DNA of 64,000 bases, taken from contig VXCM01002132.1 in NCBI GenBank assembly GCA_014773175.1, positions 90,237 through 154,236 on the forward strand, given 5' to 3'. This DNA is from Lucifuga dentata. Lineage: Eukaryota > Chordata > Actinopteri > Ophidiiformes > Bythitidae. The position numbers and the translations under genes are program-made. Below, in pieces: positions 42,042 through 52,000 of this stretch; within the stretch, counting starts at the first letter, position 1; every line of letters begins with the position of its first letter. The notes under the pieces were generated by a model. That model was not told where the DNA came from. It made no database searches and worked only from the letters and a program-made list of their open reading frames with translations.

Positions 42042-43300
42042 CTCCGATTTCCTCAGGGCAGGTGTGCTGGAACTTATACAGGGATACAACCACTGAATAT
42101 GGATTTTGTGTAACCCCCCTTTATGTAAAAGAATGGACTGCTAATGGTGATTACCAGTTAAAAATGGACTGGTAACATAAATGGCCGCTGCTAGACTCGG
42201 TTGATTTAAGTCTGTTTTAAGTGCTGACAATATGGTTGCTTGCTTCAGGAAAGGCTTAGTAGAAAAAAAGTTTCCTTTCTGGAGGCATCGGGGAAAAAAT
42301 AACTTGTTGCATATAAGAACTACACTGCGATTGTATTGCCTCAAGAACTGTGACAACAGTGTTGCAAATACAGTATCTGCAAAAATACAGCTGATATGTA
42401 TCACGGTTTAACAGTTTACATGATTACTCGAGATTTGAATATTTAGAGCAGATAGAACAGAGGTTACACAAACTATTTTAGCCAATACATGCAGTTTAAA
42501 ATTAACCCATTTTTAATTGTATAAACTTGTGGTTGGTTTAGTTTCTACAATGATGCCTGTCTGGAGAAATTAGAGCCAATTAATGACAGAAATTACATAA
42601 TGATTTGTTTGATGTCCCTAACTCATAGAACAGCTTGTATCAGAGGCCTTAAAGTTATTTACAACCATCCAGGCAATTCATTTAAATGGTCAAAGGTAAA
42701 TTTTCTGCAGTTTGAGTGCCTTATCAATTTTTATTCATTGATCACATTTGTGTAATCAATTGTTTTTACATAAATAGTACCTTTGAGCAAAATGTTGTTT
42801 TTAAAAAGTATTTATCTTCTCAGAACTGTGAAGTAGTGTGTAGTAATAGCCAAAACAAAACTTACTGCACAGAGTTCACTTAAAGATCTTGCAAATGTTG
42901 CAGCAAACCTGCATACTTGAAATGGGATGCACTCGTGTGTGTGTGTGTGTTGTGTGGCTTTTAGGAAATTGGCAGGTAATTATCAATACACATAGTTGTG
43001 CAACAAGTTGGGTGAGCATTTCTGTGGAAGCCCAGAACTGATGTTAAACAGCATCTTACTCTGTAGACAGACACAGCAGTGGGTGTAGTGTCCTAGAATA
43101 ATATTTGTACTGCCGACAGCTTAGCAGCAAGTTTTAGGATTAAGTGTGTCATTTGTTGCTTTTGGGTAAAAAAAAAAAAAAAAAAAAAAAAATCTCTGCG
43201 ATGCTATTGAATATTAAGATCTGACTTTTTCTAAGATCTGACTATTTCTCTAGTAAATGTATTTCTCTAACAGCTTTAAACTTTATTTAGAATCATTTAG
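42042..43300. other. phkg1 3' flank, tail-to-tail with the cct6a relic
   Basis: No exon was recognised. It probably holds the phkg1 3' untranslated region, but I saw no canonical AATAAA on the plus strand. sumf2, expected here by comparison with human, was not found. Confidence 0.5.
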
Positions 43301-43729
43301 ACAGAAGATGTGTTCCAGAAACAGTTTATTTAAAAAAAACAGTAATGTACATTTTTGATTTACATCTACAATACATTTTAAAATGTAAACAACAGAAAAC
43401 TCTTCACAGTGGTTTTAATAACACCCTGTTGACGTTATCTCTCAAGTGGTAGCTCTACTTACCTTAGATGAGTTTCAATCAACAACAGTCTGACCATCTA
43501 ACTCTGTGCTGGTCTTTACGTTTGTGCTTCACCTGAACATTTACCCTAGTCATAGAGCGACCTGAAAACACAAAGCATCTCCTGTTTGACACGCAAAGGA
43601 GAGACGCAAAACACCATGTAACACTTTAACTTACTCTTTCATTAAGGGATTTACGTGAGAAGTTGTTGATGTGTCAGAAAATACTGTTGAAGTAAGGTTT
43701 GTGGGTATAGCAGGACGGCACGAGTGTGT

Positions 43730-43869
43730 GACTGTCCTCATTCCTACACTGTTGGATTAGGCACAAAGCAGCACTTATCCTGTCATTATGTCGAAATGAG
43801 AGGAGGCTTTTGCATGGTGTCTGACTGTGTCCACCACAGATATGCTGGAACAGAATTCAGCCATGCATT
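43730..43869 (-). ncRNA. snora15: H/ACA snoRNA, SNORA15-like, copy 1
   Basis: Lies in the last intron of the cct6a relic. The 5' hairpin has basal stem GCATGG/CCATGC, pocket sides CTGAATTC and GTCAGACA, and upper stem TGTTCCA/TGG-ACACA. The H box is degenerate (AAAGCC) 15 bases after the upper stem. The 3' hairpin has basal stem CTCATT/AATGAG, followed by ACA at 43733-43735 and three bases to the end. Length is about 140, usual for the class. The pocket fits 18S rRNA UGUCUGG-UU-AAUUC, with one G-U pair. SNORA15 assignment rests on the CCT6A intron position and on my memory of its 18S target. Confidence 0.75.
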
Positions 43870-44735
43870 TATGTTATGGTGTTTTAATGCTGTCAAATGT
43901 AAATGGGCCCCATGCCGTAGTGTGATAGCATGTCCGACATACCAGCCTCGGTGAAACTCAGAGCCCTGGGATCATTGCTGGCAGCCTTTTCATTTGACTG
44001 AAGGTGTGCTTGTTGAGTCTGTTGATCAGCAGGGTGACTGATAAGGATTTATCGCATCGTCCTCTTACACTGGAACATGAGAGAAAAACACAAACCTGCC
44101 TTTCAGAACATGACATGACATATCTGCTTTAGGTTGTTCAGCTTTATTTGTTCAGTATGTGTCACAGAGATCAAGGTCTATTTTGCAAGAGACTTGAGAA
44201 CAAAATACATCAATACAACATTAGAAACAAGTGAATTCAATCACACAAAATGTCAAAGTATTCTGTGAAATAGAGCAACAGGAAATAACAGAATGAGACA
44301 AAGGAATGGCTGATAACAATGAGCAGAATTTGCACCCTAGACATTGTAAGTATACTGTATTTATGAATAACAGGTTCCTTGAATAAACAAGACAATTTAT
44401 CAGCCAAGAACACATGCCAGAACCAGTCTCACATGGAAGTCAGACACAGTGCTCGAACAATGATTATTTCAGTCATTTATCAACTAAAAATGCCAGACAT
44501 AAGCGATTACAGCTATACTAAGATTGGTTAAATTTTCTTACTTTACTTGGATCAACTGTTTATAAAGTGGATAAAATTATGCCTGGTGGTTACTCTGGTA
44601 ACTAATGACAGACATTTGCTGTTTTTTTTTGTTTTTACATTTTTGGGTCTAAATTATTCTGAAACAAACACAATTGACTGACAAATCAACAATGAAAATA
44701 ACAGCTTTAGAAGAAAACTGTGTAAAGTGTCATGC

Positions 44736-44874
44736 TTCTGTATTCACTCTTGGCAAAAGAATGAGACAAATAATACTCCCATCCTTATTTAGTCCAAGTG
44801 TGAAAATTATAATTTAGCATGGTGTCTGACTGTATGTACTATTTGAAGAGTAATACAGAATTCAGCCATGCATT
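44736..44874 (-). ncRNA. snora15: H/ACA snoRNA, SNORA15-like, copy 2
   Basis: Lies in the intron between relic exons 44928-44984 and 43943-44069. It has the same basal stem and pocket (CTGAATTC, GTCAGACA) as the other copies. The upper stem is different but paired (TGTATT-ACT/AGTA-ATACA type). The H box is a perfect ANANNA (AAATTA), 15 bases from the upper stem. The 3' hairpin closes with TTCAC..CTTGG/CCAAG..GTGAA, then ACA at 44739-44741 and three bases. All class rules are met. Confidence 0.8.
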
Positions 44875-46117
44875 TAAATACATGAAGAATCTACTCAGTT
44901 TGCAAAAAGAAATATAAGGTACCTCACCATTTCCTCTGGTCCTAAAAGATTCTGCCAAGGCATCTAAGCATCTTGATTAATTTCCTGCAATGAAAGACAT
45001 TGGTTGGCTGATTTAGTTTGGCTGGATATGTTGGGATGAAAGCTTGATATGCAAACATAAATGAGCTCAAAAATGTGACAAAAGAAAAAGCTACAGAATA
45101 TTCAGGGACCAGAAAAATAAAAGCATAATCCAATGAAATCCAATACTAATGTAATAAGTACTACCTTTGTGAATTTATTTATTTAAGCTTATTTATTTAT
45201 TATTTTTTGGACTGTGACACCTGTGAGGTGTTCATTCAATTTTTATAGTAATTTTTCTATTTATAAATATATAGTATATATATTTCTACTATAAATACCA
45301 GTGTGTGTGTGTGTATATATATATATCTTCCTACAGTCTGCCCCCCTCACATGTCTAAAAGGTAATAGACAAACTAGCTTTAAAATAGTGTAATCAATAA
45401 AACACACCACTAACTATGGCCAGACTTTAATCAACACCTTTCTGTCACTGTGCCAACAAAATTGGAACATCATAAGCTTCATCAAGATGATATTAATTTC
45501 AGGCCCTGTTGTACTGGACTTCATTTGATTTTATCAATTTATTTAGTCACTCATTGTTAAGGTGGAGGTCTGTATGCAAAGTTAATCAAAAGATAAATTT
45601 GATTTGAACATTGAACTGTAAAAAAAACCCAGAAAAAAACCAAGATCACCAGAGGAGGGTGAAATGTATGAAGTGCCTTACTAGTCAAAAATAATTCAGT
45701 GAATGGTGAATAGAGATTCATAATAACCAGCTGATCGTGCAATTCAATATGACAAAGGAGGTAGTCATCTTCACTGCACTACAGAGTGAAGTTTCCCTAT
45801 CAAACAATATGTAGATCATTGTTCACAGCAACAAATGGAAGACAGTTCAATGTTATCTGCATCCTTACCTACACACAGAGGCATTAGTACACACTGAGCT
45901 CTTCAGCTTGATGATTTTCTGTTGCTGACAGGAAACATAAATGCTACTAGAGAATAAAGTTTTTATCCTTCAGCAGCATTTTTGTTTCCTCTCCTTGGCT
46001 GAGGTCATCTCACTGAAATGCAGATGCAATGATTAAACAATTACATTCTCCACAATTGATACAGTAGAACAAGAGTTTTCCCCCCTCGTGTACGCACGCT
46101 GAAAACAATTCAGTGCA

Positions 46118-46247
46118 GCTTGTATTCACTCGCATACAGCAACTGAGATACATGACACCCATCTGCACTGTGAGGTGAAATGTTGCTTTCACATGGTGTC
46201 TGACTGCACACACTACGGACAAGTATCACAGAATTCAACCATGCATA
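46118..46247 (-). ncRNA. snora15: H/ACA snoRNA, SNORA15-like, copy 3
   Basis: Lies in the first remaining intron of the cct6a relic. Basal stem GCATGG/CCATGT has one G-U pair, the pocket is TTGAATTC/GTCAGACA, and the upper stem TGTGATACT/AGTGTGTGCA has one bulge. The H box AAAGCA (ANANNA) is 15 bases from the upper stem. The 3' hairpin closes with TTCA-CTC/GAG-TGAA, and the ACA box is at 46121-46123, three bases from the end. Length is about 130. Confidence 0.8.
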
Positions 46248-46703
46248 TGATCCTCCTTTGTTCTATTCTAATCGGTGTAAAATTCATTTTGTAACAAAGT
46301 TTTCCCGTTGAAATCACATACAGGGCCCTGCAGCCAATAAAAAAACATCTTGTGAAAGTGGTTTAACGTAAATACATGTAAGTAAATTTCACAGTCTACT
46401 ATAGCGTAATAATGTGGTATAACTAACTATCAGTGGTACTAGTAATAAGTAGCTATTTTCGATGCACTGTCGAATGTGGGGCAACACGTGCTTTCCAGTC
46501 TTACGTACACGTAACTTAACAGCCAAAAGATAACATTATCCGACATCATTTAGCCTGAAACTAGCAAATTTAATTAGCTAACTATTAAGTTAGCTGCAGA
46601 GTTGCAGACTCACATTTTCATCGTTCCTTTTGATCCCTTACTTGTTTTTTTTTTAAGTACACACTGTGTGATCTACAGGAACTGCTTTTGGGGTTTCGTC
46701 TCT

Positions 46704-46843
46704 CACGTGTGTCCAGACCGTTATCTCCATGCTGTTGTGCCTACAGGAAGGACATTAGTTTTATCATCTATGGTTTTAGCCAGTCTTCCAGGAACAGCGC
46801 CGGGCTGCATAGTGGCCAAAGTGGAAATTGCAATCTCACGTGA
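46704..46843 (-). promoter_or_regulatory. Candidate promoter of the snoRNA host with two CACGTG E-boxes
   Basis: CACGTG occurs at 46704-46709 and in the palindrome TCACGTGA at 46836-46843, in a CG-containing stretch just upstream of the first relic exon. Such sites bind USF, MYC or MITF/TFE factors. The start site is unknown. A pyrimidine tract CCTTCC on the minus strand near 46747 could be a TOP-like start, common in snoRNA hosts. All of this is inference. Confidence 0.4.
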
Positions 46844-46899
46844 CGCTACGGGACCGGCAAAGACTTTTCACATTCGTTACAAGATACGAAAGAAATATA

Positions 46900-47463
46900 C
46901 TTAAACATCTTATACATCCAAAATCCATTTTTTGAATGACCAAGTTGTGAACCATTGGGTCCAGTATAAAAGCCATCGAGAGCTGTATCCAGGTATGATT
47001 TTTTCTTTCAAAGGATTACTAATGCGCATGCGTCATCGTAACCCATAGAAGAGACTTCCGTGTACCCTCTTGAGAGTCAACCTTTTCATAGATCTTATTC
47101 ATTTGGACATTTTTAATTTTTGAATTTCACATTTTACTCATTTGAGTAACCACAGTAATTGCTGTTGTACTCTAAAGAGAAGGTCCTGGCTTTCCAATCA
47201 TACCGAGTGTGTCGGAGGATGGATGCTGACAGTCCCCTCTTTCTTTCTGGAAAAATGGCTACCATTAACAGGCACACAGTTAGGTCTAATAATTTAGGTA
47301 GAAAGCAGATTCGTTTTGCTAAATATACCACTCCAGTCATCTGAGAAGGACATAGATCTGAATACCAAGGTGAAGGGGCTAAGATCTATCCAATTCAACC
47401 AAAAGCAAAAGGAGTGAATTTTGAAATTCTCTTTGGCATCTATCCATCCAACAACTTTTAAGG

Positions 47464-47514
<51 letters not shown>

Positions 47515-48120
47515 TTGGTCTTTATTGGATTTTTTAATGCTCTCTAAAAATGACCCTCCCCTTTAGTTCATTTAATTTGTGGTCAGAATGTTCCTTTCCT
47601 CCACTTGATTGGTGAGTTTATCACCTTTCACCTTTTTTTGAGTTTGATAATGTTTCCAAAAACATTGATTTGAAACAGATATTTCAACATTAATGTATTT
47701 TACAAAATCCAAAACATTTCAGCAAAGCTCCATGAATTTCAATATATTTCATTCATTTACCTGACTTTAGGTAAATTATTAAAAGGTGACACCTGGCTAG
47801 AAATAAAGATACACAGAATACACAGACAAATTTCAAATGAAAATCACATTGAAAATGTCTATTTCTTTATTGATACCATAAATAATATGTAGGAACAAAC
47901 GGACACACTCGTGATTTATATATTTCGAAAATCAAACCATACCTGTTTGTCAGGTATAAAGTTAACAGGAAATGATAAGTATCAGGGTTAATCAAGATAG
48001 CAAAAAGTCAATTCTGTTTAAAGTTCTTGACATAACACAGTTCACGATTCTGTGTGAATTCACCATCAACTACACTCAATTGTATGTAATTATTATAAAA
48101 CATTTTCATGATTACATTGG
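46900..48120. other. Intergenic stretch with a (TTA)n microsatellite
   Basis: A TTA run of about 16 units lies at 47464-47513. Otherwise the sequence is AT-rich with no recognised exon or RNA gene. Confidence 0.6.
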
Positions 48121-48123
48121 GGC

Positions 48124-48312
48124 TTGCTGGCCTCCTCTCACCAGTCGTGCTGGTGTCGTCATGGAAGCGGGCCAATGAGAGGCGAGCGGTTAGTCGCCGG
48201 CTTCCTTCTGATTGGCTCAGCAACCCGCAATTCTTTTCCTGTACGGCGAAGTCATGACGGGTTGGCTAACGCACAAGCTACTGTCACTGCCTTACCAACG
48301 AAGTCTTCTTCA
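48124..48312 (+). promoter_or_regulatory. psph: psph promoter and probable non-coding first exon
   Basis: The stretch is CG-rich with one forward CCAAT box (48172-48176) and one reversed (ATTGG, 48211-48215), 35 bases apart. A consensus donor, TTCTTCA followed by GTAAGTAG, ends an exon at 48312. The next acceptor is TTTTTCTCAG at 49006, two bases before the ATG. No TATA box. Confidence 0.6.
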
Positions 48313-49007
48313 GTAAGTAGTGGGCATAAGCTGCATTCTGCGCTTATTTGAAGCGGGCGATCTGGTTTTGCAGCCTGAGGCAGTTTCGGCACCAGAAGCG
48401 AAGCTGATTACAGCGGTCAGGTAACTTACTGACTCTGCGATGATGCGTAGTATTCGAATCTAGCGGTCACGCTGCCGATTGGCAAATATTACAAGCGGAA
48501 ACGAGTTGCTTATCAGTACTTGATCGTTTTACGCGTGTTTGGGTCTTGTTTGCCAGCCTGTTCTGTGTAGCATGCGGGAGGGGGGATGACGCAAGCCGAG
48601 CTAGGGATGTCCAGTATCCGTCATATGGGTTGTTCAGAGGAGATGTGTATTGAGTAACACGTTTTAAACTAAAATATGGAGGCCAGTGTGTGATAACAAA
48701 AGCCGTACAAGCGCAATCGTATGCGCCACGGTAGTTTTTCATGAGTGGTTGTGCTACAGAAACACGCTCACTTGACTCTTACTGTAACAATGACCTGACG
48801 AGGCAGATGACGGTGGAAGGCACAGAGCTCACGTTTCCCGTGCACATTCGACCTGTGACATGCTTAATGGAAAATAATGAGCCTCCTAGTGCCTGTCACG
48901 CTACGTATCTGCTGTAACTTGCAGACTATGACATTAAGTCCTGTATTCCAAAGCTGGAAATCCTGCTGCCGACTGATTGTCTCATCTTGTTTGCTCTTTT
49001 TCTCAGC

Positions 49008-52000
49008 ATGATGCCAACACTGTCACAGACAAAGGAGCTCTTCAGGAGAGCAGAAGCTGTGTGTTTCGACGTGGACAGTACAGTTATCAAAGAAGAAGGC
49101 ATTGATGAACTGGCCAAATTCTGTGGTGTGGGGGATGCGGTTACAGAAATGTATGTGTAATGTGCTGATTTTATTGTACACATGATGACATCACAGTTTC
49201 AAGTGCTGAAAACAATCGATTAATTGATTGATCCAAAAAAAAAAATTTTTTTTTAGTAATGTATAAAGTGCAAATGTCAAACACTTGCTGGTTTTAGCTT
49301 CTCAAAAGTGAGGTTTTTCCTCCCTTTCCCTGTTTCATATAATTGTAATTAGAATCTCATTGTACAGTACTTTAAAACTCTTAAGCCAAAATAAGAAGTG
49401 TGAAGACATCACTTTGGACTCTGTGATAGCTATTTGTCCAAGTTTTTAGACATTCTACAGATTAATCAATAATGAAAATAATCATTATTTTCAGCTTTTC
49501 AATTTCATTTTGATCTGCATTGCTCTACAGGAAAAAGCATTTAATTCTTATGTTTTGTGACTCATTACTGGATTTGGTGTAAATATGCTGTCTTGTGCTG
49601 TTTTGTGTTGCAGGACACGCAAGGCTATGGGTGGCTCAGTCACGTTTAAAACAGCCCTGACTGAGCGTCTATCCATCATCAGATGTTCCAGAGAACAAGT
49701 GAACAAACTGATAACGGATCACCCGCCTCAGCTGACTCCTAGAATTAGGTTAGTGTGTGATGGTGTCAGTGTGTTTGAGGCTCATTACAGGAACACTCAA
49801 AACCCTGGAGTCTAAGTTAAAGGAGCATATGTAAAACAACTTCTGAATTTCTGTGTAGCTTCACCAACCAACTTTGGTGCCAACTTTGATTAATACCAAC
49901 TTTAATTAATTAAATTAATTGCACAACAAAATTAATTCATTTACAGACATTAATGCTTCAAATTAATGATTACGGTGAACAACCTCCCATTTCTGATGTT
50001 AATTGTTGAGCGCAAAAATAACAAAAAAAAAAAAAAAANAAAAAAAAAAAAAAGATTTTTACTGAGGTAGAAGCATTTTATACTTTTGAATATAAGAAGA
50101 AAAAAAGCAGGTGATTTATATTCCAAATCTTCTAGCACAGAAAGGTCAATCAGTATCTAGACTGAAACAGTGAGCTTAAATGTGCAGTTTTTCGTTTTTA
50201 ATATAACTTAAGTGATCAACATGCAACAAAATTTGCAGATGGAGCAGACAGTTTAGAGTAGGGGTTTATACACTTTATAAATTAGAAATGGGATATGGTT
50301 CTGTTCTATCTGTGATAGCTCTGGCATAATTATAATTTCTCCTTTTTCCTGAGAGGTGCAGAGATATTTAACCTGCAATTAAATTTTTTATACCACCACA
50401 TTTATACATATTCATACACAGGACAAGGTGTCAGATGACTCACATTTCGCTAAAGTTACCAAAAACACTCCTTCATGATTAGTTAGCATGTGTCTTTACT
50501 ACTTAATATATCAGGTCACCTCAGACAGATTAAACTTAATGGACCATACCATGGTCAATCATCAACCAACTGTTGATGATTGAGAGAAAATTTCTCTTGT
50601 TGCCTGTAGTAAATGGCCATGATATATGCATGCTCCAAGGTGTCCTGATACAGCAAATGGACTTAGCTGAGGTAATGCCTCTTTGCATCTCCATAATGTT
50701 ATTTTTGTATATCAGGACTCCTTGTTATGCATTATCTCTTACTCACCTCACATAGAAACATTTGGATGGTATTATACAAAAGTCAAGCAGAAATTGTGAC
50801 ATGACTCAATCACTGGTAAAAGGCCCTGTTTCTGCTTTATCCAGGGAGCTTGTGGACCGTCTGCACCAGCTCAACATAAAGGTGTTCCTTATTTCAGGAG
50901 GCTTCCGCTGCATTGTGGAGCATGTGGCCACTCAGCTCAACATTCCTTTGCATCATGTTTATGCCAACCGCCTTAAGTTTTACTTCAATGGTAAGAGTTT
51001 ATCAGTGTGGCATGTGACTTGTGTGGTGGAGCAAGCTGTTTGAGCCTGAGCTACAGACTGTTTATTAGCAAGTATTCCTTAAAGGACCATACCAGCCATT
51101 TTGTATGTTTGAGCCTAATATATTCAATTTTCATATATGTTACGTTACTGACAGCCATTTCCCAAAGGATAAAACCATATTTCAGCTTTCCTGATATTTT
51201 GTAAAATCTCTTAATCTTTCAAAATCAAACATTCAAATGATACACCCACCTTAAAAATCGATGTTTCACCTGCTAATAGTTACGCAGCCTTATGAAGTCA
51301 TGGTNATACACCCACCTTAAAAATCGATGTTTCACCTGCTAATAGTTACGCAGCCTTATGAAGTCATGGTCGTTTAAATTTTTAGATAAACGCAGGTCTT
51401 CTTTTGGGACTATATTTCCCAGTGGAGACATACATTGACTCCGCACTTTTTATCATGCTTAAACGCTAAAATTACGTAACTTCTAAAAAAAATCTGAATA
51501 CACGTCTTGTTCACGATGATGAATTACCTATCCCAAGAACATTTCGAGCATCGACAAGTTGATTTTAATAGCGTACCAGAATGAACTGAAACCAATGGCG
51601 GTCTGGAAAGTAGGAAAAAANACAAGTTGATTTTAATAGCGTACCAGAATGAACTGAAACCAATGGCGGTCTGGAAAGTAGGAAAAAAAAATTTTAATTC
51701 ACAGCATTATGTTTTGGGAAAGGATTGTCAGTAATGTTACGTGTGTGAAAATTGGAATATATTAGGCTCAAACATGTAAAATGGACGGTATGGTCCTTTC
51801 ATGACATTAAGACCACTGTAACAAAGCTTTACTCGAAGCAAATTAAGCCACTTCCAAACCTTTTCTTTTATCAGCTCTTTCAACATTTTTTCAACACTCA
51901 TCTGATCTCTCATAAGAAAACCAGATGTCCTTATGGAGAAACTGTTCTACGTTGCTAAATCACCCTTGTGTTTATTCAGGAGAGTATGCTGGCTTTGATG

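Follow-up and report, generated by a model that had tools for sequence, protein, structure and literature searches.

A decayed cct6a duplicate with SNORA15 genes in its introns: a probable non-coding snoRNA host in the fish Lucifuga dentata

The region considered here is a 64 kb stretch (the window) of contig VXCM01002132.1 in the 598 Mb assembly of Lucifuga dentata, in which our genome-wide searches were made, and its translated stretches give the gene order BICD-like, chchd2, phkg1, a decayed cct6a, psph and nipsnap2. The chchd2 gene was named by protein matches, the first 14 listed having 73-86% identity and the 13 named ones among them coming from spiny-rayed fishes, and nipsnap by a search match; phkg1, psph and the BICD-like gene are what we take the other neighbours to be. 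The human order is presumably CHCHD2, PHKG1, SUMF2, CCT6A, PSPH and NIPSNAP2, and because the window agrees with it the decayed gene can be said to occupy the CCT6A slot, between phkg1 and psph, where a first-pass annotation of the same DNA had placed it. Relics of the gene, three small nucleolar RNA (snoRNA) genes and retained splice signals are found at this place, and an intact second cct6a with a different snoRNA content is present elsewhere in the genome (Table 1). According to our analysis of the sequence, the locus is very probably a decayed member of a duplicated cct6a pair, retained as a non-coding host of the H/ACA snoRNA SNORA15.

The best match in the whole window for 20 of the 21 CCT6A queries is SVTLLINRLNKHT (44059-43988, minus strand; expectation value E 0.003-0.047), and the 21st query is a NIPSNAP-CCT6A fusion which outscored this match solely via its NIPSNAP part. 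The human CCT6A protein matches the same place with an E of 0.012. KGTMKM (46648-46613) and KIIKLKSSVC (45969-45877) are each weak when taken alone (E about 1 to 20), yet colinear, and the colinear chain of CCT6A fragments scores 28.9, 31.8 and 32.5 with three queries. In no dinucleotide shuffle out of 500 did the same queries score above 18.9, 20.1 and 18.7. In a set of 57 mutually overlapping stretches drawn from the rest of the window, with the plus strand of the locus among them, they reached at most 19.1, 17.0 and 17.0. An origin of the fragments by chance was ruled out, since the chain exceeds all 500 shuffles and all 57 stretches; small extra fragments of its traceback, which fall within introns, were left out of the count. 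Together with the exon comparisons given below, the chain disposes of the fear that no significant CCT6A match would exist here. The fragments KGTMKM, IIKLKSSVC and SVTLLINRLNKHT, listed in the first-pass annotation, stand as parts of the chain, and LLGPEE had to be given up, because a different frame of the same exon yields LDALAE, a piece of exon 7, and the similarity to exons 7 and 8 is not significant there.

Exons of the intact gene were also compared with the relic at the DNA level, with 300 mononucleotide shuffles for each pair. Exon 9 aligns to 44061-43943 (82/117 aligned bases identical, score 216), exon 10 to 43552-43463 (64/87, score 130) and exon 6 to 45999-45882 in E2 (70/95, score 144), with none of the 300 shuffles reaching the score in any of these cases. 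Exons 9 and 10 end, on their 3' side, exactly at the relic donors 43943 and 43463, and in both copies exon 1 stops after AT in codon 46, the donors being AT/GTGAGT in the relic and AT/GTGAGC, in the same phase, in the intact gene. No significant similarity to E2 was seen for exons 2, 3, 4, 5, 7 and 8 (9, 99, 39, 68, 84 and 13 of 300 shuffles reach the score), or to the downstream DNA for exons 11-13 (60, 198 and 246). A scan of the whole locus with 60 shuffles per exon placed exons 9 and 10 clearly above their shuffles and ten others not; a match of exon 5 at 46801-46707, one point above the shuffles, lies outside the expected exon order, upstream of exon 1, and we regard it as chance. Exons 2-5, 8 and 11-13 remained undetected at the relic in both the whole-locus and the restricted comparisons.

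The locus combines significant homology, retained introns and a lost reading frame, as an unprocessed cct6a pseudogene does. An intact cct6a frame at this very place, which had been named beforehand as one of the outcomes fatal to the proposal, was looked for and is absent, and stops interrupt the frames of the relic exons, in agreement with the claim that no working protein is made. Between the best relic block and the intact gene 24 codons can be compared, and they differ at 6 first, 5 second and 12 third positions. The 11/48 differences at the first two positions point to a protein that has long been free of constraint, and the surplus at third ones is compatible with a period in which both copies were coding. 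It could be argued that the remaining exons still encode a functional product, a short peptide or a piece of the protein, as a 56-codon stretch from stop to stop, partly intronic and containing SVTLL, can be found; with stops in the relic-exon frames and most chaperonin exons undetected, we give this idea hardly any credence.

Three of the four introns of the relic carry a snoRNA, and all three are SNORA15 genes. Two of these three exceed the gathering cut-off of 47 bits of the Rfam covariance model RF00398, the box ACA is present in each, and an exact ANANNA H box in two. Conservation is concentrated in the 5' hairpin, where 36/55 columns are invariant across the copies compared with 21/90 in the remainder, and 13/14 positions of the 5' pockets are identical in all of them. 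Each pocket can pair 7+5 nucleotides with UGUCUGG-UU-AAUUC, the stretch expected in 18S ribosomal RNA (rRNA). This pairing agrees with 18S-U1367, the target listed for SNORA15 (PMC6466398, PMC7072173), whose listed host in human is CCT6A (PMC6466398). A genome-wide search with RF00398 gave three matches, all in the relic, among the best 50 of 75,874 candidates that were scored. No SNORA22 was detected in the relic.

Table 1. Features of the decayed cct6a locus (positions in the window) and of the snoRNA genes in the intact copy
Feature	Position	Strand	Remarks
CpG-rich promoter-like stretch of relic	46401..47100	-	CpG observed/expected 0.85
NRF1-like GCGCATGC (47024), CRE-like (47029) and ETS-like (47055) sites	47024..47060		predicted
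Relic exon 1 end (KGTMKM)	46614..46648	-	donor AT/GTGAGT; 3' part of exon only
Intron 1 of relic, covering undetected exons 2-5	46013..46613	-	GT-AG
SNORA15 copy 1, intron 1	46118..46244	-	RF00398, 49.4 bits; H box AAAGCA, ACA
E2, cct6a exon 6 relic (KIIKLKSSVC)	45869..46012	-	exon 6 alignment
Intron 2 of relic	44985..45868	-	no snoRNA found
E3, probably exon 7 relic (LDALAE)	44928..44984	-	strong splice signals; similarity not significant
Intron 3 of relic	44070..44927	-	GT-AG
SNORA15 copy 2, intron 3	44736..44871	-	RF00398, 90.0 bits; H box AAATTA, ACA
E4, cct6a exon 9 relic (SVTLLINRLNKHT)	43943..44069	-	3' end on intact exon boundary
Intron 4 of relic, cct6a intron 9	43562..43942	-	splice signals, exon alignment
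SNORA15 copy 3, intron 4	43730..43866	-	RF00398, 45.0 bits, E 4.7e-6; ACA present
E5, cct6a exon 10 relic, then donor GTAAGT	43463..43561	-	3' end on intact exon boundary
Two AATAAA poly(A) signals	43330-43325 and 43287-43282	-	
SNORA22 copies, intact cct6a introns 6 and 9	L022 5329-5465 and 6646-6782		covariance search

The second, intact cct6a whose presence in the genome had been guessed does exist: a search with fish CCT6A located it at C105:173354-179711, with 13 exons and a frame of 531 residues. Its introns 6 and 9 carry SNORA22 (96.9 and 85.2 bits), and no SNORA15 was found in it at E up to 5; a model made from the three SNORA15 copies of the window had no match in the stretches L021-L024, among which L022 holds the start of the intact gene. 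The gene order on C105 is nipsnap, cct6a, what we take to be sumf2, and a BICD-like gene. As its nipsnap and BICD-like genes are paralogues of those in the window, the two regions have the appearance of a single block that was duplicated and lost different genes in each copy, and the relic and the intact gene may be a pair from a large-scale duplication, for which the teleost duplication is one candidate among others. Intron 9 of cct6a holds SNORA22 in the intact copy and SNORA15 in the relic, and this difference needs either a loss of a different snoRNA in each copy or a movement from intron to intron. Besides this pair, there is a third cct6a copy (L024 4901-5186, or C3766:41400-41685), intronless, extending from exon 1 as far as the beginning of exon 4 and containing a stop, which is probably a fragment of a retrocopy. 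Each of two catfish gene models (P0061 and P0074) joins NIPSNAP to CCT6A domains, which probably reflects an adjacency of nipsnap and cct6a such as that on C105.

The upstream end of the relic is rich in CpG, with an observed-to-expected ratio of 0.85, far above the 0.24 of the relic gene body (43300-46350) and the 0.32 of the whole window; of the 1266 overlapping 700-base windows, 24 reach 0.85. The 64 kb contain seven CpG-rich clusters, of which by our reading one is at the relic and four are at the 5' ends of chchd2, phkg1, psph and the BICD-like exon. A promoter shared with psph was considered and rejected, as a separate CpG-rich stretch (48101-48850), about 1 kb off, belongs to psph. What we take to be NRF1-, CRE- and ETS-like motifs stand upstream of the relic, and GCGCATGC at 47024 is the single NRF1-like site in the window. 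The start of the intact gene is also CpG-rich (0.63-0.78), with CACGTG at a similar distance as in the relic. A search for a 5'-terminal oligopyrimidine (5'-TOP) start gave four short pyrimidine runs, which are no more than candidates for it. As a separate matter, positions 51050-51700, in a psph intron, are occupied by a CpG-rich repeated element, probably a mobile one, to which several stretches in L021 and L023 are similar.

The splice sites and the poly(A) signal reported by the first-pass annotation are in place, all four introns being bounded by GT and AG where it had drawn them. The five donors of the relic rank 1, 2, 3, 7 and 8 among the 253 GT of the strand, in a ranking for which four of the five had been chosen in advance by that annotation, perhaps for their good looks; the three donors placed where exons of the intact gene end are numbers 1, 7 and 8. 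The best donor of the strand is the GTAAGT after 43463, and since E5 ends just before it, the transcript may be spliced further. Taken together, the CpG-rich start and the top-ranked donors suggest continuing transcription and splicing.

The same locus may be regarded as a dying duplicate, an unprocessed pseudogene whose snoRNAs and splice sites survive by chance and under no present selection. Such a view would account for the undetectable exons 2-5, 8 and 11-13, for the diverged 3' hairpins of the SNORA15 copies and for the missing strict H box of copy 3. This copy, slightly under the RF00398 cut-off and without an exact ANANNA, also weighs against a retained snoRNA host, and a number of other observations do so as well. 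The similarity of exon 1 to E1 is by itself below significance (21 of 300 shuffles reach its score), as is that of exon 7 to E3 (41 of 300, with 48 for exon 8), E3 being probably the exon 7 relic by its order and by LDALAE; two CpG-rich clusters (7.6-8.5 and 50.9-52.05 kb) are, by our reading, away from any gene start; the NRF1-, ETS- and CRE-like sites are absent from the first 2500 bases of L022; and the count by which the relic is the sole source of SNORA15 rests on the best 50 of 75,874 candidates. What contradicts survival by chance is that 13/14 pocket positions stayed constant, against 11/48 changed first and second codon positions in the best protein relic, that the relic donors are among the best of the strand, that the CpG peak is still present, and that a search scoring the best 50 of 75,874 candidates gave no other SNORA15. 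We consider a dying duplicate to be unlikely. As for the earlier claim of a complete H/ACA snoRNA in three of the four introns, it holds in that all three are SNORA15, and "complete" is slightly too strong for copy 3 because of its inexact H box.

It may also be asked whether the locus is mainly a source of a long non-coding RNA (lncRNA) or a microRNA, with the snoRNAs as passengers, as E2 contains a near-perfect hairpin (45995-45925, minus strand) with a folding energy of -34.9 kcal/mol compared with -10.1 (standard deviation 2.5) in 200 shuffled versions. At this hairpin every microRNA family stays below its cut-off, the terminal loop is very short and the constraint is seen in the snoRNA pockets, so that we judge this to be very improbable. 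The first arm of the hairpin aligns to exon 6 of cct6a and the second resembles an inverted extra copy of it; it is possibly a young microRNA-like hairpin. Its origin from a mobile element was rejected, since its sole match in the genome is itself, in a search that skips very common words.

For the retained SNORA15 host we propose the following mechanism. RNA polymerase II would start at about 46.8-47.0 kb, inside the CpG-rich stretch, and its transcript would be spliced across the remaining relic exons. Three introns would each be trimmed to one SNORA15, whose 5' hairpin pocket would guide the pseudouridylation of the 18S rRNA position that corresponds to human U1367. The intact copy would supply the protein and SNORA22. 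Transcription, splicing, snoRNA maturation and the need for SNORA15 as the cause of the retention are what we infer from the sequence. Selection for a snoRNA host predicts just such a combination of a decayed protein with preserved CpG content, donors and snoRNA pockets. It would be logical to suggest that a single ancestral cct6a held both SNORA15 and SNORA22, and we lean slightly towards the view that this cargo was divided, the coding copy keeping the protein and SNORA22 and the other copy SNORA15 alone, and that the snoRNAs made both copies indispensable. Each copy would supply what the other lacks, and neither could be lost if SNORA15 and SNORA22 are absent elsewhere, an absence which was checked for SNORA15, within the candidates scored as given above. 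The first-pass annotation was right that the protein decayed while snoRNA genes and an intact second copy are present, and had not noticed the division of SNORA15 and SNORA22. If true, it means that a duplicated gene has been kept for its intronic small RNA and not for its protein; the case demonstrates a possible route from a coding gene to a non-coding snoRNA host and predicts that some "decayed" fish duplicates discarded by annotation are the sole source of a ribosomal guide RNA.

To our knowledge, no coding ancestors are evident for the snoRNA hosts GAS5, UHG and U17HG, and the relic is unlike them in that its coding ancestor can be named and has an intact copy in the same genome. It is like them, as they are described in the literature (PMC6954239, PMC5024134), in having no conserved protein in its exons, conserved intronic snoRNAs and a spliced host, the splicing of the relic being predicted. 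A second class of related cases consists of lncRNAs in which former protein-coding genes survive as fossils (Hezroni 2017, PMC5577775), with which the relic shares a lost coding potential and a putative non-coding transcript with some of the old exons. Unlike the cases presented there, the relic has a retained function that can be identified, its snoRNA cargo, and it seems to have kept its old promoter region; the main text of that paper contains neither the word "snorna" nor the word "host".

The closest known system is human CCT6P1, which two papers present as a pseudogene with measured splicing and as the host of an intronic SNORA22 (PMC6466398, PMC10454564). Like our locus, it is a dead copy of the gene for this chaperonin subunit and has an H/ACA snoRNA in an intron. 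The published tables have SNORA15 in human CCT6A and SNORA22 in the pseudogene, and the fish pair is reversed. The fish copies differ from CCT6P1 also in standing in paralogous neighbourhoods, with the dead copy in the CCT6A slot. Human CCT6 pseudogenes carry SNORA15B copies too, and for this reason the human-fish mirror is inexact. Nevertheless, the mirror-like division in these tables suggests that CCT6 duplicates may be retained repeatedly for their snoRNAs. Neither the fish locus nor a division of snoRNAs between duplicated hosts was found in the open-licence PMC literature, as judged by titles and starts of abstracts among the matches listed. A CCT6 pseudogene as an H/ACA host and coding genes turned into lncRNAs are thus already known, and what appears to be new, as far as found in the open literature, is that two snoRNAs are divided between a working and a dead duplicate, with a mirrored arrangement in human.

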